From positions 1 to 64,000 of the forward strand of contig NZ_CALPCZ010000006.1 of the NCBI RefSeq assembly GCF_943193135.1: a stretch of DNA of 64,000 nt, read 5' to 3'. This document shows positions 10,584 through 32,969 of the stretch, one piece after another (position 1 is the first letter of the stretch; each line of letters opens with the position of its first letter). A program made the translations under genes and the position numbers. The notes beneath the pieces were generated by a model. The model worked only from the letters and a program-made list of their open reading frames with translations. It made no database searches and was not told the origin of the DNA. The stretch comes from Odoribacter lunatus. GTDB lineage: Bacteria > Bacteroidota > Bacteroidia > Bacteroidales > Marinifilaceae.

Positions 10584-11183
10584 TTAGAATTTATAACCTA
10601 CCGTAACATAAAATGCACCATTCTTTATATCACTCTGCTCCTCTATACTCATAAAACCCAACTCGTATTCTGCACCAAATACAAAACGCTGATATTCAAA
10701 ATCTACTCCAAAGTCAAGTCCAGCATCAAATCTTTTACCATACCCGTCTTTGCTAAAAACATTAAAACTTTCATCACCCTCTTTAATTTTTCCCGCAAAG
10801 GCATAAGCTAAATAAGGACCTGCTTTAAGCGTAAGATTCCATTTACTGGCAATATTGATTCTATAAGCAGCTACAACCGGAACTTGAAGATAATAGTAAT
10901 CTACCGTAAAGCCCTTGTATACAGACGCACCATTTAGGCGTACGTCTATATCATATTTAGCCCCTTTCATCGCCAATTCCAAAGAAGGCATTAATGACCA
11001 ATTAGAGGTAAAGGGCTTTTCAATACCAGCCCCAATCTTACCAACAAAATGGGAAGACAAATGCCCTGCATCTCCTCCATAGCAATTAGCCATACCAAAT
11101 CCAGCTTTCATGTTCCATGTAATTTGTGCAGACACAGTAGTAGCAAATAAAGCCACACACACCAAAATAAATAGTTTTTTCAT
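10584..11183 (-). CDS. Outer-membrane beta-barrel (PorT-like) protein
   Basis: 199 residues if started at the ATG with the clear signal peptide MKKLFILVCVALFATTVSAQ (start at 11183). The longer open frame to 11237 would overlap the caspase gene and adds a non-signal-like leader. Barrel-type strands are visible (WNMKAGFGMANCYGG, YYYLQVPVVAAYRIN, FDAGLDFGVDFEYQRFVFGAEYELGF), ending YVTVGYKF with terminal Phe as for BAM-inserted proteins. It lies 32 bp downstream of the caspase gene and 13 bp upstream of the lipoprotein gene, within the envelope operon. Specific role unknown. Confidence 0.75.
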   Translation of the reverse strand: MKKLFILVCVALFATTVSAQITWNMKAGFGMANCYGGDAGHLSSHFVGKIGAGIEKPFTSNWSLMPSLELAMKGAKYDIDVRLNGASVYKGFTVDYYYLQVPVVAAYRINIASKWNLTLKAGPYLAYAFAGKIKEGDESFNVFSKDGYGKRFDAGLDFGVDFEYQRFVFGAEYELGFMSIEEQSDIKNGAFYVTVGYKF

Positions 11184-11215
11184 AGTAAAAAAATTTAAAG
11201 TGAATATTAAGTTAT

Positions 11216-12715
11216 TTAAAATTGAAGTTCTTTCCATTTGTTTTTCAAGTTATCAGAGACGTTCACCGAAGGAGTCTGCAACTTATCATTCTCAAGCATC
11301 GAATTCTTTTTCACTTCCGAAGAGAGAGTTGTAAATAAATCACCGAAAGTAATTTTACCTTTCGTCTTCTTTAATTGATCTAACAAAAAATAAGTAAACA
11401 TTCCATGCCGTTTTTCTTTATATGAAAGTGCCGTTTCATCATCTGATGCAGCTGTAAAAACAACCATATTACCACCAAGTACTTCATTCTTAGGTTTAAT
11501 TGCAATACCACGTGCAGCAACTAAAGCCTGGCCATTTCCTCGCTTTACACCACTGAAACAAGCATCCAGTAATACAGTTATACTCTGAGTCTGCATTTTT
11601 GCTAAACGCCCATACAACTCACTCAATTTGAAACAAGTACTAATATCTTTAGGGAATCCATCTGTAGGTATGAGGTATGCCGTTTTATCTTTCTCATCCG
11701 GCATTCCGTGCCCCGCATAATAGAAAATTATTTTAGCTTTGCCTTCTGTCACATTCGCCATTGTTTCTGCCCAATTTAATGCCCGTTTTATATCCGTATA
11801 TGAAGCATCCGGAAACATACGTATCTGTTTTTCCGGAATCCCAAAAGTTTTTACACAATATTCTTTAAATATTTCTCCATCACGCAAAGCATAATCTACT
11901 TCTGGTACATCTTTATAATTTTCATTCGCGATTATAACACAATATGTATCTCTGTTCTTGTCAGAAACAATTGTTGGAATATCCACATCCACGTCTACCG
12001 GAGGCAATACTGGTTTTTGAGCTGCAAGCTCTACTACCTCCTGTTGTGTTTTTGATTTTTTCTGTATTGTCTGGTTAGTATTATCATCAGATTTATCTGT
12101 TTTCCCTTTCGCCCAACCTAATAATCGATCCGTAAATCCGCCTTTGGATGAATTATCTTTTGCAACCTTCTCTGTCTGTTCTTTTTCCTTTTTATCTATT
12201 TCAATTTTTTTCACCTGTACTTGCCGAGGATCCTTAGCTGATGCAAATATTATTTCCCCTTGTCCAGTCGGCCAAATCTCCTTGCCTTGACGCAAAGAAT
12301 TTTCATCTACACTTGCAGACATTGTAAAACCAAGTCCCGGATTATTTCTAAAGGCATTTTTTCCTACATGCCTAACAGACATCGGAAGTTGTACAGATAT
12401 TAATCTTCGAAATTCATTAAAAGAAAATTTGTCAATATCTTCTATTCCCTCTTCCAATATCAAATTAACAGTAAGATAACTTGCACCATTCACAAACGTA
12501 CTTATTTGCTTTACAGGGAAACTATTACCTTTATAAACAACTGTCGCTGGAATTATGACATCAGCAACACTCGAGTTGAAAGCTGTAATACACACCCCTC
12601 CATCAATCATTTTACATTTAAATTCAACACCTTTATAAGCATAATCAAAACGCTGAGCCATTATCTTCGACACAGAGATGATTAGTAAAAAAATTAATAC
12701 TATTTTTTTCATCAT
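11216..12715 (-). CDS. Secreted caspase-fold (C14) peptidase
   Basis: 499 residues. An N-terminal signal peptide (ends KIMAQ) is followed by a short BspA-like leucine-rich segment (about residues 40-125), a low-complexity Lys/Gln-rich linker (about 165-240), and a caspase-like domain (about 255-495). The catalytic dyad is complete: His336 in FYYAGHG and Cys386 in LLDACFSG. C14 enzymes cleave after basic or acidic residues, but specificity cannot be judged here. The signal peptide puts it in the periplasm or outside, unlike most caspase-like defence effectors. It sits 2 bp from the DUF4384-like gene in an operon with LPP20-like, barrel and lipoprotein genes, suggesting an envelope-associated processing function. 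Confidence 0.85.
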   Translation of the reverse strand: MMKKIVLIFLLIISVSKIMAQRFDYAYKGVEFKCKMIDGGVCITAFNSSVADVIIPATVVYKGNSFPVKQISTFVNGASYLTVNLILEEGIEDIDKFSFNEFRRLISVQLPMSVRHVGKNAFRNNPGLGFTMSASVDENSLRQGKEIWPTGQGEIIFASAKDPRQVQVKKIEIDKKEKEQTEKVAKDNSSKGGFTDRLLGWAKGKTDKSDDNTNQTIQKKSKTQQEVVELAAQKPVLPPVDVDVDIPTIVSDKNRDTYCVIIANENYKDVPEVDYALRDGEIFKEYCVKTFGIPEKQIRMFPDASYTDIKRALNWAETMANVTEGKAKIIFYYAGHGMPDEKDKTAYLIPTDGFPKDISTCFKLSELYGRLAKMQTQSITVLLDACFSGVKRGNGQALVAARGIAIKPKNEVLGGNMVVFTAASDDETALSYKEKRHGMFTYFLLDQLKKTKGKITFGDLFTTLSSEVKKNSMLENDKLQTPSVNVSDNLKNKWKELQF

Positions 12716-12717
12716 AC

Positions 12718-13584
12718 TTATTTTTTTCTAATTATTATTGATTTCCTCATCAATTGCATTTCAGTATCATGTTTACGACAATTTGCCAACCATTTTTGGA
12801 AATCATCATAAGACAAATCTCTCGGTAAGGCTATGTCTGTATTATTATCACTAGCTTTAATGAATGACCGAGGAGAAAAAATAATATAAAGAAGATTCTG
12901 TTCCAATTTCTCCGAACAAGTCATCACATATTCATCTACCAATGAACGTTCAAAAATTGGAGCTTCATCAATATGAAAAAAGAGATAACGTTGATTTGCC
13001 CTTATTTTATATATTCCTTCTGTTTGCTCCCGATAAGGCAAAAGACAATAAGCCCGCTTTTCCATATCCAACAAATAAACCGCAAGATAACCACTGACAG
13101 GTGATACAAAAGAAAGGTACATATCATCTCCATCATAAAATGTATCATCTTCATATTTATCATCGGTCGCATTGCGCAATATGCGCGCTTTAATGTTTAT
13201 TTTTGCAGAAAGTACTTCACGAGCACGCCCTTTAACCTCAACCTTGATTATTAACATTCCTTGCTCATAATGAACATCATACACAGGACTACCGATAGTT
13301 TCTATCCACTCTCCTTTTACTTCACTACCACCTATCGAAAAGAAATCAATACCTGATTCGCCATTGCGATTTTCAACAAGGGTTGTATTAGTTTGCGAAA
13401 CAATTGTACCAAAAGCATCTGCCAATGCCTGTATTTTCGCACGGTCAAGTGCTATCTGTTTGGCTTCTTCAAGTGTTATATTCTCAGGCGCATGATAAAT
13501 ATACTCAGCCGATAGTGTTTGTATCTTTTGCGCAAAAAGAGAAATAGCAAAAAAATTTAAAAGAATAAATAGAAATATTCTCAT
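12718..13584 (-). CDS. Secreted DUF4384-type envelope protein
   Basis: 288 residues with a signal peptide (ends ISLFAQ). The N-terminal half has an LPP20/FlgT-N-like segment (about residues 35-130: EEAKQIALDRAKIQALADAFG), also found in proteins that enter envelope assemblies. The C-terminal half has features of DUF4384 (MYLSFVSPVSGYLAVYLLD... GIYKIRANQRYLFFHI). In other genomes DUF4384 is often linked with caspase-fold peptidases, and here the caspase gene follows 2 bp downstream. The assignment rests on these recognisable patterns, not a search. Molecular function unknown. Confidence 0.7.
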   Translation of the reverse strand: MRIFLFILLNFFAISLFAQKIQTLSAEYIYHAPENITLEEAKQIALDRAKIQALADAFGTIVSQTNTTLVENRNGESGIDFFSIGGSEVKGEWIETIGSPVYDVHYEQGMLIIKVEVKGRAREVLSAKINIKARILRNATDDKYEDDTFYDGDDMYLSFVSPVSGYLAVYLLDMEKRAYCLLPYREQTEGIYKIRANQRYLFFHIDEAPIFERSLVDEYVMTCSEKLEQNLLYIIFSPRSFIKASDNNTDIALPRDLSYDDFQKWLANCRKHDTEMQLMRKSIIIRKK

Positions 13585-13588
13585 CCTC

Positions 13589-14263
13589 TTACCAACCTAA
13601 AATATTATCAAGTTTCTGATGTAAATCTTCAGATTTATCCTTCAACTGTTCACGTACAGCCTTTTTGGCTGCAGATTTTGCCATCGCTCCATTGTAAGCA
13701 ATACGCACTAATACTTCTTTGTTTCTATTACGAAGAACTCTATAAACTTCCATTACAGTTATTACCCGACCTATACTTTGTGATATAAGATTTTTCGAAG
13801 CCATTACACTTTGAGTAACCGATTCTGCCTGTTCAGCCTCAAGTTGTTCATTGGCAACTGAATTTTCTACCAAAGCAGTAATTTCTGTCTGTATTTGTCC
13901 CGCAAGATTTTGTTTCGCTAATTCAATCGCTTGCATTTTAGCCGCATCATAATTGGTGCCTACACTCATAGCTTCCGCCATAAGATATTTTGGATACAGA
14001 TCTTCGTCGTATTCCATTTGCATGAGATAAGACTTGTCAAGCTGTTTTTCCAAAGGAAGTGCACCTGGAGCAGCTTGCCATCCTTCACCAATTAATTTTT
14101 TACTTTCCCTGCGTGCTATTTTGGTCGCTTTCTCCTGAAGTTGAACTTTAGAGGCTTTGGTTATTTCCTTACGTTCTTTTAATTGTTCCTTAGTGATTTG
14201 AGCTGACACGGTAGAAACAAGCCCCATCAGCATGATAGACAATACGATTCTTACTGCTTTCAT
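13589..14263 (-). CDS. LPP20-like secreted protein, first gene of the caspase operon
   Basis: 224 residues from the ATG at 14263, chosen because it starts the signal peptide MKAVRIVLSIMLMGLVSTVSAQ; the open frame continues 54 bp upstream into the leader. A lysine-rich helical stretch (about 25-55) precedes an LPP20-like domain containing YDAAKMQAIELAKQNLAGQI and IGRVITVMEVYRVLRNR. Such domains occur in outer-membrane-associated proteins of varied function. It is separated from the DUF4384-type gene by 4 bp and lies directly behind the structured leader at 14264-14615, so the whole five-gene operon (14263 to 10172) is probably controlled there. Confidence 0.7.
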   Translation of the reverse strand: MKAVRIVLSIMLMGLVSTVSAQITKEQLKERKEITKASKVQLQEKATKIARRESKKLIGEGWQAAPGALPLEKQLDKSYLMQMEYDEDLYPKYLMAEAMSVGTNYDAAKMQAIELAKQNLAGQIQTEITALVENSVANEQLEAEQAESVTQSVMASKNLISQSIGRVITVMEVYRVLRNRNKEVLVRIAYNGAMAKSAAKKAVREQLKDKSEDLHQKLDNILGW

Positions 14264-19824: not shown

Positions 19825-22734
19825 TCAAGGAACAACCGGACTGATTTGTACTTGTCCGTCTCCGGAGTTTCCTGTCATTGTTCCAGTACCTGCTAAATTC
19901 GGCATACCGACATAACTGCCTTGTACTGTTGTCCATCGATAACCGGTACCGTCAATCATTGTCGTATTCGTGAAATATAAACCGGAATAATGAACAGACT
20001 GACCTGTAGGACTGCCAGAACTATTAATTGCATTACAACCGGTATGTCCGGAAACAAAGGAAGAACCTCCGAATGCTCCACGACCGACATTATACTGTCC
20101 TGTATAATATGATCCGTTTCTACTACCTCCATAATAGCCACCTCCACCACCTCCTCCGGCGGATTGGTTATTTACCCCATTCGTACCAATTCCCAAAGTT
20201 GTGTTGAATGTTCCACGACCACCGGCACCACCGGCACACCCATTCCATCCTCCGGCACCGCCACCACCACCGGCAACAATCAATCGGGAATATAAAGATG
20301 TCGTACCATCCCATGAACCTCCCGTCAAACGCACATCCGAAGCTCCCCCTCCGGCACCTCCATTTTCAACTCCGCCATAAGTATCTTTTCCACCTATCGC
20401 ACCACCATTCCAGCTTGCTCGCCGTGAGTTATTATCGTTACCGATTTGTCCGACATAAACATATAAAGCGGTACTTTGGGCTAATGCTATTGTACCCCTC
20501 GCATAAGCTCCGTATCCTCCCTTTGAACGACCAGCAGCATTTCCTCCTCTTGCTCCCCAACATTCCATAACATACTCTCCCGGCACCAACGTAATATTCT
20601 GTTGGGAACCAGTGTAACCAAACCGTCTTTGTATTTTCAGCCTTTGGGTCCACGACTGTCCCGGACATTTATCCGATGAAACCGTCACATCTACCCAAAA
20701 TACGGAATTGGAGGTCAAGCCGGACACCACGCCTTTGTCGGCTGCAATAGATATTCCTGCGGGAGCATTATCCAGTTTCCAGTGAGCCTGCGGCATGTTT
20801 CCCCAGGTTGAATTTACGGTAAAAGAGGGGTAAACATTGGTATACGTGTCCAATGAATTTGTCCACGGAAGAGGTGCCACATACACATTCGTCACTGTTT
20901 CCGCCATGCCGACGGCACAGATTCCCACACGTTTAAACTGATACCTTACAAAAGTGGTGCCGGTATTGACAAAATTATTGTACACCAATGACTCCCCGGT
21001 GGCATCGGGAATTATATCGAATTTCACTTCTCCCGGTTTCTTTACATACCAATTGTATTGAAAACGTACATCCGGAAAATCAGGACAGGAAGGCAATTGT
21101 ATATTGACAATATGCAATTCATTCCCGGGACAGGTCGTATCGCCCTGAATTTCCCCGCCGTCTATTTCAATCCCTGAAAGATTATAAACGCCCCGGAATC
21201 CCACCGTGCTGTCCCGCTGGGTAACAGACGTGAAATAGTTCATCGCTTCCGTTCTGTCCGAAGTCCGCAACAATTCATCTGCACTATTAAAACCTCCGCC
21301 TCGCACTCCGTACCTGCTGGCTGTTTTATCCCACAGACTGGCATTATACACGCCCGTTCCGCAACTACCACCGTTTAGATTGGTATAATTTACATTGGCA
21401 CATAACTCCTTTAAATTCCCGCTCATTTCCATCACTGCCCAATACGTGGCACCCGCCTGGGTTTGGTTGGTAGCCGACGTAGCAAACAAGCCGCACCGCA
21501 CGGGGCCGTTAATACTGTTAGCAGTTCCACTGTTCACGTTCTTTAAGTAACTCAATGCCTGTTCCCGTTGTTCTCCCCGATAGTTTAAATCGCTAAGGAA
21601 GGAAATACGGTTGATGCCGTTATTCGTATTCCACGCATACTCTCCTTCATCGGGCTCTTGGGGATAAAACCGCCGGCAGGCCTTTTCATACTCCAATTCA
21701 CTCATCGGGCGTAATCCACTCCAACTGCAATACGCTATCATATCCTCTATACTCATGTAATTGCACGCGAGTGTCTGTCCGTCGTCCGTACTAAAGAGGT
21801 CGTTACTTGGGTTCAGATTATTACCGAATACGGCGGGCGTATTTGGCTGCCGCTGTTCGATAAACACAATGCCGTTCCGGCAACTCGGTGTGTGGAGGTC
21901 TCCAAACACATAATCTCCTCGCTTCATATTGGCAAAATCATTATTCTCAACTCTCGCCTTTTGCTGTGCCAACGTCAAAGAGTTCAAAAACTCCGCGTAC
22001 TGCTCTTGGCTTATCTCGTATTTCATGATATAGAAGCCCGCGTAGCCTTTTGGATAAGAAGCCGAAAGAGAAACGTTCGACATGCCGTCTTTGGCTGAAA
22101 GCGTCATTGCTGCCTCGGTATCTATCACCACGGCCTCCGTACCGCCTACCACAAAACTCTTGTTGGAATACGCATCCCCTAAGTAATACGCACCGTATGG
22201 AACATACACCATCTCTATGGCGTGAACGGCAACGTAGATTTCATTCAACGCTTCGCCAAAATCCGAGCGGGTCAATCCCGTGCCCTCTAATGGCCATTTC
22301 GCTTGCAGCCGCACACTTACATTCCCCTCTGAAATTCCCTCACGCATCACGTACAGACCGTTTACCTTGCTACTGTTCGTGCCGACCATGTACGCGTAAC
22401 CGCCGTCCTCGTTGCCGGCAGCCCTACTTAATACATGTCCCGAAGAACCTAAATACGCATGCTGCCACGGATTCTCTAAGCCCCGCTTCTTGTACTTAAA
22501 GAACACCCACGCAGCATCCCAGTTGAAATCATCCCGCCACGAATTATCCCAGCGGAGATACACCTCAATAACCGCCGTATCGCCCGAAAAGTCGATAACG
22601 CGCGTTTTACCGTCTACCCGGATATTGTTACCGAACACGGGTGGAGAAAACAATCCGGAAAGAGTCACGACAAACAGCAACCCCAACGACATCCGAAGAC
22701 GCCGCATTCCGGCACACTTGATTAATTTTTTCAT
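19825..22734 (-). CDS. Large secreted SUMF1-fold and glycine-rich-domain surface protein
   Basis: 969 residues with a signal peptide (hydrophobic LLFVVTLSGLFSPPVFG). Order: a unique beta-rich N-domain (about 35-175), a formylglycine-generating-enzyme/SUMF1-like domain (about 180-530, with YIMKYEISQEQYAEFLN, GLRPMSELEYEKACR, GVRGGGFNSADELLRT), two Ig-like segments (about 540-710), and a glycine-rich receptor-type domain (about 715-965, with GAGGGASDVRL and GGGGGGYYGGS). FGE-fold domains in secreted proteins are often binding modules rather than enzymes. The gene follows structured leader A and is single. It probably displays binding domains at the surface. No C-terminal type IX sorting domain is evident. 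Confidence 0.8.
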   Translation of the reverse strand: MKKLIKCAGMRRLRMSLGLLFVVTLSGLFSPPVFGNNIRVDGKTRVIDFSGDTAVIEVYLRWDNSWRDDFNWDAAWVFFKYKKRGLENPWQHAYLGSSGHVLSRAAGNEDGGYAYMVGTNSSKVNGLYVMREGISEGNVSVRLQAKWPLEGTGLTRSDFGEALNEIYVAVHAIEMVYVPYGAYYLGDAYSNKSFVVGGTEAVVIDTEAAMTLSAKDGMSNVSLSASYPKGYAGFYIMKYEISQEQYAEFLNSLTLAQQKARVENNDFANMKRGDYVFGDLHTPSCRNGIVFIEQRQPNTPAVFGNNLNPSNDLFSTDDGQTLACNYMSIEDMIAYCSWSGLRPMSELEYEKACRRFYPQEPDEGEYAWNTNNGINRISFLSDLNYRGEQREQALSYLKNVNSGTANSINGPVRCGLFATSATNQTQAGATYWAVMEMSGNLKELCANVNYTNLNGGSCGTGVYNASLWDKTASRYGVRGGGFNSADELLRTSDRTEAMNYFTSVTQRDSTVGFRGVYNLSGIEIDGGEIQGDTTCPGNELHIVNIQLPSCPDFPDVRFQYNWYVKKPGEVKFDIIPDATGESLVYNNFVNTGTTFVRYQFKRVGICAVGMAETVTNVYVAPLPWTNSLDTYTNVYPSFTVNSTWGNMPQAHWKLDNAPAGISIAADKGVVSGLTSNSVFWVDVTVSSDKCPGQSWTQRLKIQRRFGYTGSQQNITLVPGEYVMECWGARGGNAAGRSKGGYGAYARGTIALAQSTALYVYVGQIGNDNNSRRASWNGGAIGGKDTYGGVENGGAGGGASDVRLTGGSWDGTTSLYSRLIVAGGGGGAGGWNGCAGGAGGRGTFNTTLGIGTNGVNNQSAGGGGGGGYYGGSRNGSYYTGQYNVGRGAFGGSSFVSGHTGCNAINSSGSPTGQSVHYSGLYFTNTTMIDGTGYRWTTVQGSYVGMPNLAGTGTMTGNSGDGQVQISPVVP

Positions 22735-23020
22735 ACCAAGAAATACTTTACACCTTGAAAGTCCCCGGAAAGGTGGGTTTATAACAAAAGAAAAGCGTGG
22801 GAACTTTAGTTTTACCGAAACTGAGGATCTGGACTTCCCACTACACGATAAAACGACACCCCACGCTTAACCTATATATAACGTAAAGTGTATATATACG
22901 GCAAGCGAACGTTTGTACATTTTGCCTCGTGTAGTTGAAATTGTCCAGATTTCAGTTTCAAGGCAAAGCTAAACGCTTTAAAACAAAATATGTTGATCAC
23001 GGCAGTTCTCTCTGCCACAA
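22735..23020 (-). ncRNA. Structured 5' leader RNA, copy A (SUMF1/glycine-rich gene)
   Basis: Observed pairings: P1 22793-22801 with 22860-22868 (9 bp, AAGCGTGGG/CCCACGCTT); long-range helix 22817-22824 with 22952-22959 (GAAACTGA/TCAGTTTC) continued by 22827-22834 with 22943-22950 (ATCTGGAC/GTCCAGAT); outer helix 22910-22914 with 22971-22975; inner helix 22921-22926 with 22962-22967 (TTTGCC/GGCAAA); small hairpin TGAAA/TTTCA (22936-22940 with 22950-22954) whose 9-nt loop holds the GTCCAGA arm. P1 and the long-range helix interleave, giving a pseudoknot. A competing stem 22797-22803/22835-22841 followed by GCTTTTCTTTT on the minus strand resembles a terminator 60 bp before the ATG. A 5-bp hairpin (GGCAG/CTGCC) lies near the 5' end. 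Function is inferred. Confidence 0.7.
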
Positions 23021-23025
23021 CGGGA

Positions 23026-23033
23026 CAAATATA
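23026..23033 (-). promoter_or_regulatory. -7 promoter box of leader A
   Basis: TATATTTG on the minus strand, identical to the boxes in front of leaders B and C; transcription would begin near 23018. Confidence 0.6.
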
Positions 23034-23168
23034 AAGAAAAAAGATAGAAAAGTAAAAAGCGAAAAGAATCTAAATCAAGGAATTAAAATAAAGAATACCC
23101 TTATTCTCCGTCCCTGGATAGGCAGGAAAACGAAGAATAAAAGTATTTTCAGAAACAAGAACAGAATA

Positions 23169-28896: not shown

Positions 28897-31800
28897 TTAT
28901 TTAGAACACTCTCCATTTAATATTTGCTCTTGGGTAGGGTTATATTTATTGCCGCTGACCTCATAAGTACCGTTAAAAGTTTGTAACGCATTTTTCAAAG
29001 CACAATAATTAGATAAACCCAGGCAATCTTCTATATTTACACCACCCAATATACTACCACCATTATTTATCTCTTTTAAATTGTCTAAGCCTACCAACGA
29101 GGTTAAGGCTGCACAACCGCGGATGGACAAACCTATTCCGACACTACTCAAATTGTCTAAGCTGCTCAACGAACTTAAGGCTACACAATTTTTGATCTCC
29201 AAAAAATTTCCGACACTACTCAAATTGTCTAAGCCGCTCAACGAACTTAAGGATGCACAATTGTAGATGAGCAAATTTCCGCTGACACTACTCAAATTGT
29301 CTAAGCCGCTCAACGAGCTTAAGGCTCCACAATCACCGATGGTCAAACTGTTGAGACTACTCAAATTTTCTAAGCCGCTCAACGAACTTAAGGCCATACA
29401 ATTTTTGATGGATAAACCTCCGACACTATTCAAATTTTCTAAGCCGCTCAACGAGCTTAAGGCTCCACAATCGCTGATGGATAACCCTCCTCTACTCAAA
29501 TTTTCTAAGCCGCTCAACGAGCTTAAGGATGCACAATTGTTGATGTACAAAGTCAGTCTAACATTACTCAATTTTTCTAAGCCGCTTAACGAGGTTAAGG
29601 CTGCACAATTGTTAATGTACAAACACCCTCCGACAATACTCAAATTTTCTAAGCCGCTCAACGAGCTTAAGGCTCCACAATAGCTGATGGTCAAATTTCC
29701 GACACTACTCAAATTGTCTAAGCCGCTCAACGAGGTTAATGCACTACAATAGGAGATAGACAATTCTCTGACACTACTCAAATTGTCTAAGCCACTCAAC
29801 GAGGTTAAGGCTCCACAATAGCTGATGGTCAAAGTTCCGACACTACTCAAATTGTCTAAGCCGCTCAACGAGGTTAATGCACTACAATAGGAGATAGACA
29901 ATTCTCTGACACTACTCAATTTTTCTAAACCTTTCAAAGTAGTCAAACTGGAACAATCAAGTCTCAGTGAACCGTCTATCTCAACAAGGTTGTTATTCAA
30001 TTCCTGCAAAGTCTTTAATTCCTGTCCTGTTACGCTCACATTTCCGATAATTTTGGTATATTTGGAAAAATCTGCCAGGTCTTGCTTTGCTGACAACACA
30101 ACATCACCGACATAGACACATCCCTCTTGCGTGATATAAACGGTAACTGTCTGCTCGCTATTTTTGTCCCGCACGATGATTTCCCCTCTACGGGCATCCA
30201 CACCGTCGTATCTCGAAATGCGGAATCCTATTGTACTCGTGACCAAACCTCTGGTTGAGGGTATCTGCTGTATCCAACTCTGATCTTCCTGCGAAATAAC
30301 AACCTCGTAATCCACATTGCTTTTTACCTCCACAGAAATATCTCCCCCTTCCATAGGTATTGTAAATTGTCTTTCAGATAAAAGAAGCACGCTTCCCGAA
30401 TTCTGGATAACATGCAATGTGTCACTTAACTCTTTGCCCCGTGCCTTCACCACCACTTTCGCTTCGCGACTTTCGTAGTTACCATTTGCACCGATGTTAA
30501 AACGAATTTCATTCTCTCCGCCATTTACCCGGCTAATCCAGGTTGTTGCTTCTGCGGGAATAATCACGTCGTACTCCACATTCGCACTAACCGCGACACC
30601 AATCGTTCCTCCGGCAGCCGCCACCTCCACTTTCCGGAGGGTTAAAGTTAGATAAGGAACTTCCGGATTTTGTCCCTCTGAAGTACCTTTTTGAATCTGT
30701 AGAGTAATCAGTTTATTATTATATGTCCATTCTTTTGATTGATATTGAGGCATATTATTTTCATCAAACCAAGCCGTAAGCAGGAAAATCTCCCCATTGC
30801 CAGGATTGCTCCAACACTTCAATTCTGCTAATTCGGTGTTCTTGCTGACATTCAAGGTCGTTAATTGATTATCTGTACAAGCCAACGCCTTTAGTTTCGT
30901 GTTTTCCTCCACATTTAAAGTCGTTAATTGATTGCTACTGCAACACAACTTCGTCAACTCTGTATTTTTAGTCACATCCAAAGTCTGGAGTTTATTAACG
31001 TCGCAATTCAGTTCCACCAACGCCACATTCTTGCTTACATCCAAATTTGCAAGTTTGTTACTCCAGCAAATCAAGTGTGTCAATTTCATATTTTTACTCA
31101 CATCCAAAACCGAGATTTCATTTTGAATACACTCTAATTTTGTCAATGCAGTAAAATATTCTATTCCCATCAGAGATGTTAATTGAGCTCCATTGACATT
31201 AACCTCCGTTATTTTATTTACTTCCCCACTTGTAATGTGCTTGGCATCCTCGACATACCCTTTTTCTTGCAACACCTGGGCAAATTTCGGATCGAACTTG
31301 TCCGTGATGTCCGTATTTTCATCGATACCCTGCATCACAGTCAGGCGCTGCTTTTTGTCGCCAAAATCGATATCTATGAATGCCTGCCGCAATGTTGATG
31401 TCGCATTTTGTGTCGCGGTTATGGTCAATCTCACCACACCTGCCTCTCCACTCTTCGCAGAGAGCGACAACCATCCGGAAATATCTCCATCATAACTTAC
31501 GGAAGCCTGCCAAGCATCAGGAACAGCAAATTCTATGGTTTCAGAATCAGCCTCGCAATCCAGTAAATATTCGGTCTTCGGGAAGTTGCCGGTGGAAGCT
31601 ATCGACTCTTGTTTCGCCTGCCGGACATGCAGCGTATCGGTCAGTTCGCCGTCCTGCTCCTTGATGATGACCACGGCGGAGCGGGCTGCGTCGCCCTCGT
31701 TTCCGTCAATGGAGAAATAGAGTTTGTCCGTGCGGAGAGCACGGGTGGAAAGATGGGATACCCACGTATTCACGCTGTCGGGAACGATGACTTCGTAGTC

Positions 31801-32532
31801 GATGTTGGTTTTCAGTTCCACAGTGATTTCCTGTGCCGCAGCAGAAAGGTTATACGTATCTTCGGAAAGAATCAGGTAACTTTCCCCCGCATTTCCGGAC
31901 TGGTAAACATAAGCCGTGTCTTTCTTCGAACCGCCGGAGAAGACGATGTAGCCCTCGCGTTTTTGGCTGTCCTCGTTGGGCGAAACGGTGTAACGGAAAG
32001 ACTGCGAGGTCATCGTTCTGGTGTCGGGAGCCTTTTTTATCCACGCCTGGAAAGCGGACGGAATCATGGAAGTGCATTCGACACTCGCCTGCAACGTCAC
32101 GGTAAGGTCGCCTCCCTCGGCAGCCACCTCGAACTTGTCTTTGGCCAGCGTGAGGGCATTGACGCCTTTCTGGGTGACGGCAAGCACCTTGCTCTGCGAA
32201 CCGCAGCGGACAGTGAGGTTCACATTGCGGTCGGACGTGAGCGTGGAGGCTTCCACCGTCACTCTCACCGGCAGCTGTCCCGATCCGGTGGTCACACTCG
32301 GCTGACACCACTCATTGCCGCCCGTCAGTGTCCATACACCGGAACCATTGACGGTAAACTCTTTCCAGCCGCCCGAGGCATCAAAAACAAGGTCTTCGGT
32401 CGAAAGGCTCAACGTCGTGCCTGCCGGATTATCCGGATTGTTCGGGTCATAAGGTTTATCAATATCCTCATGTTTACTGCAACTCAACAGGGCACACACC
32501 AGTGCCGCCAGAATAAAAAACGATTTTCTCAT
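28897..32532 (-). CDS. Giant BACON-domain and leucine-rich-repeat surface lipoprotein
   Basis: 1211 residues from the ATG at 32532 (MRKSFFILAALVCALLSC, lipobox Cys). The open frame to 32553 adds seven unlikely residues. Order: four BACON-like beta domains (about 40-405), an internalin-like block of six 21-residue repeats (about 450-600, consensus LDVSKNxxLxxLxC), two further BACON domains (about 635-815), and 13 repeats of 22-25 residues (about 845-1165, consensus SLSGLDNLSSVxxLxIxxC). BACON domains bind glycans or mucin-like ligands, and LRR arrays bind proteins or glycans, so a surface adhesin is likely. The DNA of the second array is highly repetitive, hence prone to length change. The gene is led by structured leader B. 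Confidence 0.88.
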   Translation of the reverse strand: MRKSFFILAALVCALLSCSKHEDIDKPYDPNNPDNPAGTTLSLSTEDLVFDASGGWKEFTVNGSGVWTLTGGNEWCQPSVTTGSGQLPVRVTVEASTLTSDRNVNLTVRCGSQSKVLAVTQKGVNALTLAKDKFEVAAEGGDLTVTLQASVECTSMIPSAFQAWIKKAPDTRTMTSQSFRYTVSPNEDSQKREGYIVFSGGSKKDTAYVYQSGNAGESYLILSEDTYNLSAAAQEITVELKTNIDYEVIVPDSVNTWVSHLSTRALRTDKLYFSIDGNEGDAARSAVVIIKEQDGELTDTLHVRQAKQESIASTGNFPKTEYLLDCEADSETIEFAVPDAWQASVSYDGDISGWLSLSAKSGEAGVVRLTITATQNATSTLRQAFIDIDFGDKKQRLTVMQGIDENTDITDKFDPKFAQVLQEKGYVEDAKHITSGEVNKITEVNVNGAQLTSLMGIEYFTALTKLECIQNEISVLDVSKNMKLTHLICWSNKLANLDVSKNVALVELNCDVNKLQTLDVTKNTELTKLCCSSNQLTTLNVEENTKLKALACTDNQLTTLNVSKNTELAELKCWSNPGNGEIFLLTAWFDENNMPQYQSKEWTYNNKLITLQIQKGTSEGQNPEVPYLTLTLRKVEVAAAGGTIGVAVSANVEYDVIIPAEATTWISRVNGGENEIRFNIGANGNYESREAKVVVKARGKELSDTLHVIQNSGSVLLLSERQFTIPMEGGDISVEVKSNVDYEVVISQEDQSWIQQIPSTRGLVTSTIGFRISRYDGVDARRGEIIVRDKNSEQTVTVYITQEGCVYVGDVVLSAKQDLADFSKYTKIIGNVSVTGQELKTLQELNNNLVEIDGSLRLDCSSLTTLKGLEKLSSVRELSISYCSALTSLSGLDNLSSVGTLTISYCGALTSLSGLDNLSSVRELSISYCSALTSLSGLDNLSSVGNLTISYCGALSSLSGLENLSIVGGCLYINNCAALTSLSGLEKLSNVRLTLYINNCASLSSLSGLENLSRGGLSISDCGALSSLSGLENLNSVGGLSIKNCMALSSLSGLENLSSLNSLTIGDCGALSSLSGLDNLSSVSGNLLIYNCASLSSLSGLDNLSSVGNFLEIKNCVALSSLSSLDNLSSVGIGLSIRGCAALTSLVGLDNLKEINNGGSILGGVNIEDCLGLSNYCALKNALQTFNGTYEVSGNKYNPTQEQILNGECSK
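29055..29975 (-). repeat. Tandem coding repeats (13 units) inside the BACON/LRR gene
   Basis: About 13 units of 66-75 bp share a nearly identical core (plus-strand AAATTGTCTAAGCCGCTCAA) encoding LSGLDNLSS or LSGLENLSS. Units remain a multiple of three, so gain or loss of units keeps the frame. Confidence 0.85.
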
Positions 32533-32845
32533 AGCTATTACTTTTAAAATCAAACAATTCTTGATTTAGCTACCTGAAATTCCCCAAAGGCAAGTCTATA
32601 ACATACGAAAAGCGTGGGAATTTTTCCGTTCTATCGAACTTGAGGGTCTAGACTCCCTTATACTCAGATAAAACGACACCCCACGCTAACCCGCATATAG
32701 CTTAGAAAAGTATATATGGAAAGCATGAGCGTTTGTACCGCAATCCTTTGAGTATATGAAATTGTCTAGATTTCAAGTTCAGGATAAAGCAGAAACGCTT
32801 TCAAATAAAAAAAATATGTCCGTCCGTGCGGATACACCGCACAAG
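32533..32845 (-). ncRNA. Structured 5' leader RNA, copy B (BACON/LRR gene)
   Basis: Same layout as copy A with compensatory changes. P1 32611-32618 pairs with 32680-32687 (AGCGTGGG/CCCACGCT). The long-range helix pairs 32636-32643 with 32773-32780 (GAACTTGA/TCAAGTTC) and 32647-32653 with 32764-32770 (TCTAGAC/GTCTAGA). The outer helix pairs 32729-32734 with 32793-32798, and the inner helix 32743-32747 with 32781-32785 (ATCCT/AGGAT). The hairpin TGAAA/TTTCA again presents a 9-nt loop with the GTCTAGA arm. A 5' hairpin (GTGCGG/CCGCAC) follows the promoter. The terminator alternative is weaker than in A and C: a GGGA/TCCC core, then GCTTTTCG. It ends about 78 bp before the start codon. Confidence 0.7.
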
Positions 32846-32851
32846 ACTTGA

Positions 32852-32859
32852 CAAATATA
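32852..32859 (-). promoter_or_regulatory. -7 promoter box of leader B
   Basis: TATATTTG on the minus strand, matching TAnnTTTG and identical to the boxes of leaders A and C. Transcription would begin near 32845. Confidence 0.6.
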
Positions 32860-32969
32860 GTTTTTTTTTGTTTTTTATACAAACTGCCGGCCTGAACACC
32901 GTCTGTTTGTATATTGTCAGATGAAAATAAAAACTATATCTTTACGCATCCAATACAAAACGCAAAAAC

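Follow-up and report, generated by a model that had tools for sequence, protein, structure and literature searches.

Two leader regions of Odoribacter lunatus belong to a family of folded RNAs spread through the Bacteroidota, whose members conserve two mutually exclusive folds and carry long-range helices that are private in sequence to each copy within the genomes examined. From sequence alone, this RNA is likely to be a gene-control element that has not been described before. We further infer that it is a cis-acting leader with a promoter of its own and that transcription attenuation, brought about by strand exchange within the molecule, is its means of controlling the next gene; we give this mechanism a probability of roughly 0.5.

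Two related leaders in Odoribacter lunatus

The DNA analysed (hereafter the window) comprises positions 1-64,000 of contig NZ_CALPCZ010000006.1 from O. lunatus assembly GCF_943193135.1. A preceding sequence-only reading had placed two leaders, A (22735-23033) and B (32533-32859), in it; both are found at these places, on the minus strand. Each begins near a TATATTTG promoter box (at about 23030 and 32856, respectively) and is limited at its 3′ end by the ATG of a gene. The elements discussed below are as follows, in the order of transcription for each leader.

23026-23034, minus: promoter -7 box TTATATTTG of leader A, from the sequence
22996-23021, minus: 5′ hairpin P0 of leader A, arms co-varying among own-genome copies
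22971-22979, minus: P2a (AAAGCGTTT), partner P2b or, with a 3 nt extension, P3b
22962-22967, minus: P1a TTTGCC, partner P1b, alternative partner P5b
22953-22959, minus: helix I 5′ arm GAAACTG (private code), 98.9% paired (n=103), 7/7 pairs covarying
22936-22954, minus: P6 hairpin with kissing loop IIa (TCTGGAC), from the alignment
22929-22935, minus: helix III 5′ arm (private code), 96.4% paired, 6/6 pairs covarying
22921-22926, minus: P1b GGCAAA, from the 103-sequence alignment
22908-22914, minus: P2b AAACGTT, from the 103-sequence alignment
22903-22907, minus: S1 strand (CGCTT), able to pair with S2/P3a
22871-22901, minus: P4 AT-rich hairpin, long type only, from the 103-sequence alignment
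22860-22868, minus: S2/P3a AAGCGTGGG, P3 being 98.7% paired
22848-22854, minus: P5a GTTTTAT, from the 103-sequence alignment
22840-22846, minus: helix III 3′ arm (private code), from the 103-sequence alignment
22825-22839, minus: P7 hairpin with kissing loop IIb (GTCCAGA), P7 96.9% and helix II 67-79% paired
22817-22823, minus: helix I 3′ arm CAGTTTC (private code), from the 103-sequence alignment
22809-22815, minus: P5b GTAAAAC, from the alignment and the alternative-pairing count
22793-22807, minus: S3 AAAGTTCCCACGCTT, the junction plus P3b, partners S2, P2a or S4
22783-22794, minus: U-run past P3b, terminator-like, from the homologue count
22751-22775, minus: P9 hairpin, loop with S4 (GGGGACTTT, 22758-22766), from S3:S4 complementarity
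19825-22734, minus: gene A, a 969 aa exported protein with FGE-sulfatase and ALK_LTK glycine-rich domains
32533-32860, minus: leader B, the second copy in the window, 147.4 bits with covariance model R1
32852-32860, minus: promoter of leader B
32822-32847, minus: P0 of leader B
32610-32801, minus: core of leader B
32577-32585, minus: S4 of leader B
28897-32532, minus: gene B, a 1211 aa lipoprotein-like product with BACON and LRR domains

The sequence-only reading had proposed that A and B share a promoter box, a 5′ hairpin and the same helices, with arms that differ in sequence and still pair. Both claims held: every arm quoted was found and is paired, and compensated pairs separate the two leaders in helix I (two), helix II (one) and helix III (most of its pairs). 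P1 varies as well, from UUUGCC/GGCAAA in A to AUCC/GGAU in B. Because P1 interleaves with the long-range helix, a fold that holds the two together is pseudoknotted, and for that fold the claim of a true pseudoknot stands. The overall interpretation, a candidate new pseudoknotted RNA with compensatory changes, is supported. What that reading missed was a family of about 30 copies with phylum-wide spread, the nature of the middle arm pair as a kissing loop of two local hairpins, the existence of two mutually exclusive conserved folds, the U-run that ends P3, and the privacy of helices I and III.

Without constraints, both leaders fold more stably than dinucleotide shuffles (z = -5.5 for A and -4.4 for B), and the minimum-energy fold of each is rod-like. 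Elsewhere in the window, a caspase-domain (Peptidase_C14) protein is encoded at 11216-12715 (minus strand), inside a run of exported-looking genes on the same strand (10584-14263).

Covariation establishes a folded RNA

Homologues were aligned in three sets. In a MAFFT alignment of 15 copies that was not fitted to structure, 91.8% of instances of 59 pairs are paired, compared with 32-52% when the arms are slid, and every pair of helices I and III varies on both sides. The second set, of 103 family-level sequences, covers 14 helices with 61 pairs; pairing there reaches 91.0%, against 37-50% after a slide of 1-3 columns, and the covariation score is 0.453 as opposed to 0.04-0.08 for slid controls. 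This second alignment was fitted to I, III, P4, P6 and P7; the helices outside the model (P1, P2, P3, P5 and II) still hold in it, being 67-99% paired. Finally, in an independently recruited set (n=66) the fitted helices are 93.8% paired and score 0.954 for covariation, against 0.07-0.11. Chance inverted repeats are ruled out by the slide and shuffle controls. Covariation over homologues, one of the checks named by the sequence-only reading, is thus overwhelmingly positive and decisive for a folded RNA.

Helix II, which lies between I and III, is a 7-bp loop-loop contact of the local hairpins P6 and P7. The arms of P0 also change together, as in copy C1:198900 (GCTATGGTGG/CCACCATAGC). Most conserved positions of the RNA fall in stems.

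Distribution of the RNA family

A BLASTN search with leader A finds 31 places in its own 2.63 Mb genome, where a covariance model built from 15 copies (R1) reports 30 strong copies (>130 bits) plus weaker, shorter or cut ones. Within a Marinifilaceae-level set, R1 detects the RNA in 29 of 59 genomes and 10 of 17 genera, with no more than 14 copies per genome outside the window's own. A second model, R2, matched at least 89 of 395 genomes and at least 56 of 197 genera in the class; these counts are lower bounds, with six candidates scored per genome. In a phylum-wide draw, R2 matched 40 of 395 genomes, all except one in the same class. A scan of named genomes with the motif only gave loci in Prevotella, Alistipes, Paludibacteraceae, Sphingobacterium lumbrici, Chitinophagaceae, Flavobacteriales and Cytophagaceae records, and R2 confirmed 66 of 80 such loci at E<1e-5. 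It gave no confirmation for loci with the short motif labelled Variovorax and Bordetella. The family is thereby shown to be spread through the Bacteroidota and sparse outside the class.

Two size classes exist. The long type, to which the window's family belongs, has a core of about 185 nt and an additional AT-rich hairpin (P4). It is the short type, of about 150 nt and without P4, that is widespread. Copies lie singly at scattered places, apart from a few tandems. At locus L057, a degenerate partial copy (2374-2517) lies about 150 nt upstream of a full leader (2670-2863) and shares its helix-I 3′ arm (TAGAACA) with that leader but has no 5′ arm to pair with it; further tandem pairs occur at L141, L179 and L183. 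Many contigs of the O. lunatus assembly (G000 C4, C17, C18, C19, C33, C36, C39, C43 and C45) terminate at or just past a leader; repetition of the leader, the signal peptide (MKKLIKCAG...GNNIR) and the start of the gene is the apparent cause.

Helices I and III carry a code private to each copy

The 30 own-genome copies carry 26 alleles of helix I and 24 of helix III, and no two copies have both in common. Mean pairwise identity among them is 0.39 for I and 0.36 for III; the remainder of the RNA averages 0.79, and the P1/P2 and P3/P5 stems 0.92-0.95. Two copies that are 99% identical elsewhere have only 14% of I and 33% of III in common, and every arm is still complementary to its partner. Where alleles recur (four pairs for I; groups of 3, 3, 2 and 2 for III), the partner helix is different each time, a mosaic of the kind that swapping of nested blocks would give.

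Orthologues in other species often retain the same code. Among pairs with at least 0.80 identity in the rest of the RNA, both helices are held in common by 0 of 245 same-genome pairs and 11 of 479 different-genome pairs; at 0.95 or above, the figures are 0 of 7 and 6 of 12, respectively, from few pairs. Genomes of other families (G189, G378) point the same way. G032 provides an exception, as a stretch of 2.8 kb or more that contains the RNA is duplicated there with 100% identity. These statistics show that helices I and III form a code private to each copy within the genomes examined. To our knowledge, there is no precedent for codes private to each RNA copy.

Two mutually exclusive folds are conserved

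P2a is paired with P2b in 94.5% of instances and could pair with P3b in 94%. The 3 nt flanks of P2a match the P3b side at 2.71 of 3 positions, compared with 1.56 of 3 when partners are swapped (p~7e-27), and covarying flank pairs include AAA/UUU, UCA/UGA, UUU/AGA and CUU/AGG. The P3a flank does not account for this pairing (1.49). P1a, besides P1b, has P5b as a possible partner (88% paired). S3 contributes GUUCCC of P3b, which is complementary to the GGGAAC-like S4 in a start-proximal hairpin, with a score of 15.1 as compared with 11.6 for swapped and 10.2 for shuffled partners (p~1e-24). S1, just past P2b, can pair with S2/P3a (89.7% paired) with little covariation beyond conservation and some three-strand compensations, such as CATAC/GTGTG/CACAC.

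P2a and P3b therefore each have at least two covarying partners, and the statistics show two exclusive conserved folds: kissing hairpins (state K) and a single rod (state R). The GGG:CCC part of P3 and the UUU:AAA part of P2 form only in K, and the P2a/P3b flanks pair only in R. Conservation of both K-only and R-only pairings argues that the RNA is bistable. The similarity of the two halves would by itself give some alternative pairing that has no function; the P2a/P3b flank test and the S3:S4 test alone do not depend on this similarity. S4 lies beyond the U-run and so would act on read-through RNA only. Some short-type copies (for example, L210, L219 and L231) lack it.

Genomic context of the leaders

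The sequence TANNTTTG occurs within 110 nt upstream of 163 of 197 homologues, compared with 14.6 in shuffles, and usually lies 40-70 nt before P2. A run of 5 or more U residues comes immediately after P3b in 77% of 194 homologues; the figure for control windows is 2%. The distance from the end of the model to the next ATG has a median of 57 nt and is 45-65 nt in 62% of cases (58 nt for gene A); this spacing is found outside the window's family as well, and about 40% of copies have no ATG in the 45-65 nt interval. The preferred distance to the ATG rules out a standalone sRNA as the main form. Three criteria for an attenuator are met: promoter, leader and gene lie in order on the same strand; a GC-rich stem (P3, 98.7% paired) precedes the U-run; and exclusive pairing of the terminator strands is conserved, through the P2a:P3b flanks and S3:S4, and weakly through S1:S2.

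The two main rivals to attenuation bear on the same features. The first is that the fold, together with P9/S4, sets ribosome access or shields the 5′ end of the mRNA, the U-run being a loop or protein-binding site and not part of a terminator. Such a translation or mRNA-stability element would fit the S3:S4 pairing, which encloses the U-run and ends near the ATG, the preferred ATG spacing and the enrichment of exported products. We consider it unlikely: a U-run placed exactly past a GC-rich stem in so many copies is the signature of an intrinsic terminator, and private codes are not explained by this reading alone.

The second rival is a metabolite or ion riboswitch, with a ligand pocket in the conserved stems and junctions and the variable helices as ordinary periphery. 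The leader position, exclusive pairings, U-run and conserved blocks do resemble an expression platform. However, such an RNA would be expected to serve one pathway or transporter class, and the downstream proteins have no family or pathway in common (81 Pfam families among 91 proteins). In addition, the conserved positions lie mostly within stems, and peripheral helices would need no within-genome privacy. The evidence thus weighs against a riboswitch, and attenuation remains our preferred reading.

The sequence-only reading had also stated that the leaders precede large surface-protein genes. This is true of A and B and is not general: a hydrophobic, exported-looking N-terminus is present in 73% of 177 downstream proteins (31% of other ORFs at the same loci) and absent from the remainder, and a lipobox in 28% (11%). 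Downstream examples include BACON, LRR, PKD, T9SS-tail and C10 peptidase proteins, AbiGi and a type IIG restriction enzyme. A defence-specific role was rejected on the basis of single hits only among the 91 proteins.

Leader and gene behave as an accessory module. In the sister species G002, the genes that flank module B stand 292 bp apart, and gene A is missing from the corresponding interval in both G001 and G002. A homologous RNA in G001 (L389 ~11119-11283; G001:C11:2929118-2929282, plus strand) lies beside the same ispG as leader A in the opposite orientation, which suggests a hot spot for such modules. In a related genus, g11, each genome has several paralogous loci at which the RNA is immediately preceded, on its own strand, by a multicopy DUF3871 gene (PF12987) (L147:3890-4945, also L154, L155, L157, L158, L159, L161 and L170); these gene copies are 83-94% identical, and the RNA code and downstream gene differ.

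Absence of the modules from sister-species loci, and the shuffling of codes between copies, would also suit an element that acts as DNA, such as a recombination or integration site (for example, a folded single-strand attC) ahead of accessory genes. This possibility is all but excluded by the promoter, U-run and preferred ATG distance, which fix one transcribed strand; nor did the analysis turn up an integron-like array or a viral contig with the short motif.

Relation to known RNAs

The sequence-only reading knew of no named Bacteroidota RNA with this layout, and that statement held. No Rfam 15 family reaches its gathering threshold in the leaders of the window, the 15 loci or the 20 class-wide loci scanned; the only matches in the window, a cobalamin riboswitch (RF00174, 41117-41312, plus strand, 108.8 bits) and a tRNA, lie outside the leaders. 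The best sub-threshold score for leader A is 13.4 bits for L20_leader, for which 58.7 are needed. Likewise, no description of the RNA was found in the literature searched, and descriptions beyond it cannot be excluded.

We infer that the RNA is attenuator-like in its working and yet not a member of a named class. Like transcription attenuators and riboswitch expression platforms, it is a 5′ leader with exclusive pairings and a terminator-like stem and U-run before the start codon; unlike them, it has no identified signal and no common downstream pathway, and its loops pair at long range through a code that is private to the individual copy. Kissing loops that convert to extended duplexes are known from the HIV-1 DIS dimer, plasmid CopA-CopT and ColE1 RNAI-RNAII. 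In those systems, too, two hairpins with complementary loops are able to kiss or anneal fully, but here both hairpins reside in one molecule that is present in many paralogous copies per genome.

The paralogous sRNAs FopS and GibS are also a multicopy Bacteroidota family tied to surface-protein control. FopS RNAs are trans-acting sRNAs of Bacteroides, about 65-70 nt long and mostly intergenic or antisense (PMC11697453), whereas the RNA described here is a leader of about 150-300 nt with a different fold. Identity with FopS/GibS, which have an R1 seed, was rejected for mismatch in size and layout against the published description; no sequence alignment lies behind this judgment. Flavo-1, Bacteroid-trp and other curated Rfam RNAs of Bacteroidota were similarly found computationally, but no scanned copy of the leader scores above threshold with their models. 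A type III toxin-antitoxin system (an RNA followed by a ToxN-type endoribonuclease) is ruled out by the absence of a common downstream family. A phage element was rejected because neither the short motif nor the long 3′ block turned up in a viral contig, and a plasmid element because there was no plasmid match.

Proposed mechanism of gene control

Sequence statistics establish the RNA, its strand, promoter box, helices, alternative partners, U-run, ATG distance and, in the genomes examined, code privacy. Termination, the direction of control, the reason for selection of privacy and a signal-driven choice of state are inferred, in the absence of transcript, 3′-end or probing data.

In the attenuation model, the 5′ half (P2a-P1a-loop-P1b-P2b) and the 3′ half (P3a-P5a-loop-P5b-P3b) are hairpins that resemble each other and whose loops are complementary. 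In state K, each half would be closed on itself, the loops would kiss through helices I, II and III, and P3 with the U-run would form an intrinsic terminator. In state R, the halves would anneal into a single rod, with P2a taking P3b, P1a taking P5b, and P3a perhaps pairing with S1. The freed GUUCCC of S3 may then pair with S4 near the start codon, and transcription and translation would go ahead. Some signal, not identified, would select between K and R. Because helices I and III would be needed in both states, each copy would need arms that match only itself, and the private code would keep about 30 co-resident copies from cross-pairing.

Alternatively, leaders terminated at the U-run might accumulate as sRNAs that act in trans on their own locus, guided by the private code as an address label. 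This would account for the codes and the terminator-like end, and for codes that are kept among species orthologues and not common within a genome. There is no evidence that the terminated piece exists, and we regard this version as very unlikely.

Attenuation in cis remains the reading that we favor. A bolder version, to which we give rather less credence than to its opposite, is that of a Bacteroidota-wide regulatory RNA whose copies are kept orthogonal by a private self-complementary code renewed by recombination. Dozens of accessory genes might then use a common switch design without interfering with one another, or each might be targeted separately by its own terminated leader.

Significance

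The intramolecular switch from kissing hairpins to rod is directly testable by experiment. If the model is true, a natural set of dozens of near-identical RNAs that private codes keep from recognizing one another would solve the problem of RNA cross-talk in a new way. The family would represent an unnamed control element across a phylum that dominates the human gut, positioned before adhesins, lipoproteins, proteases and some defence genes, and would offer one way into the question, still open, of how Bacteroidota regulate their many accessory surface genes.
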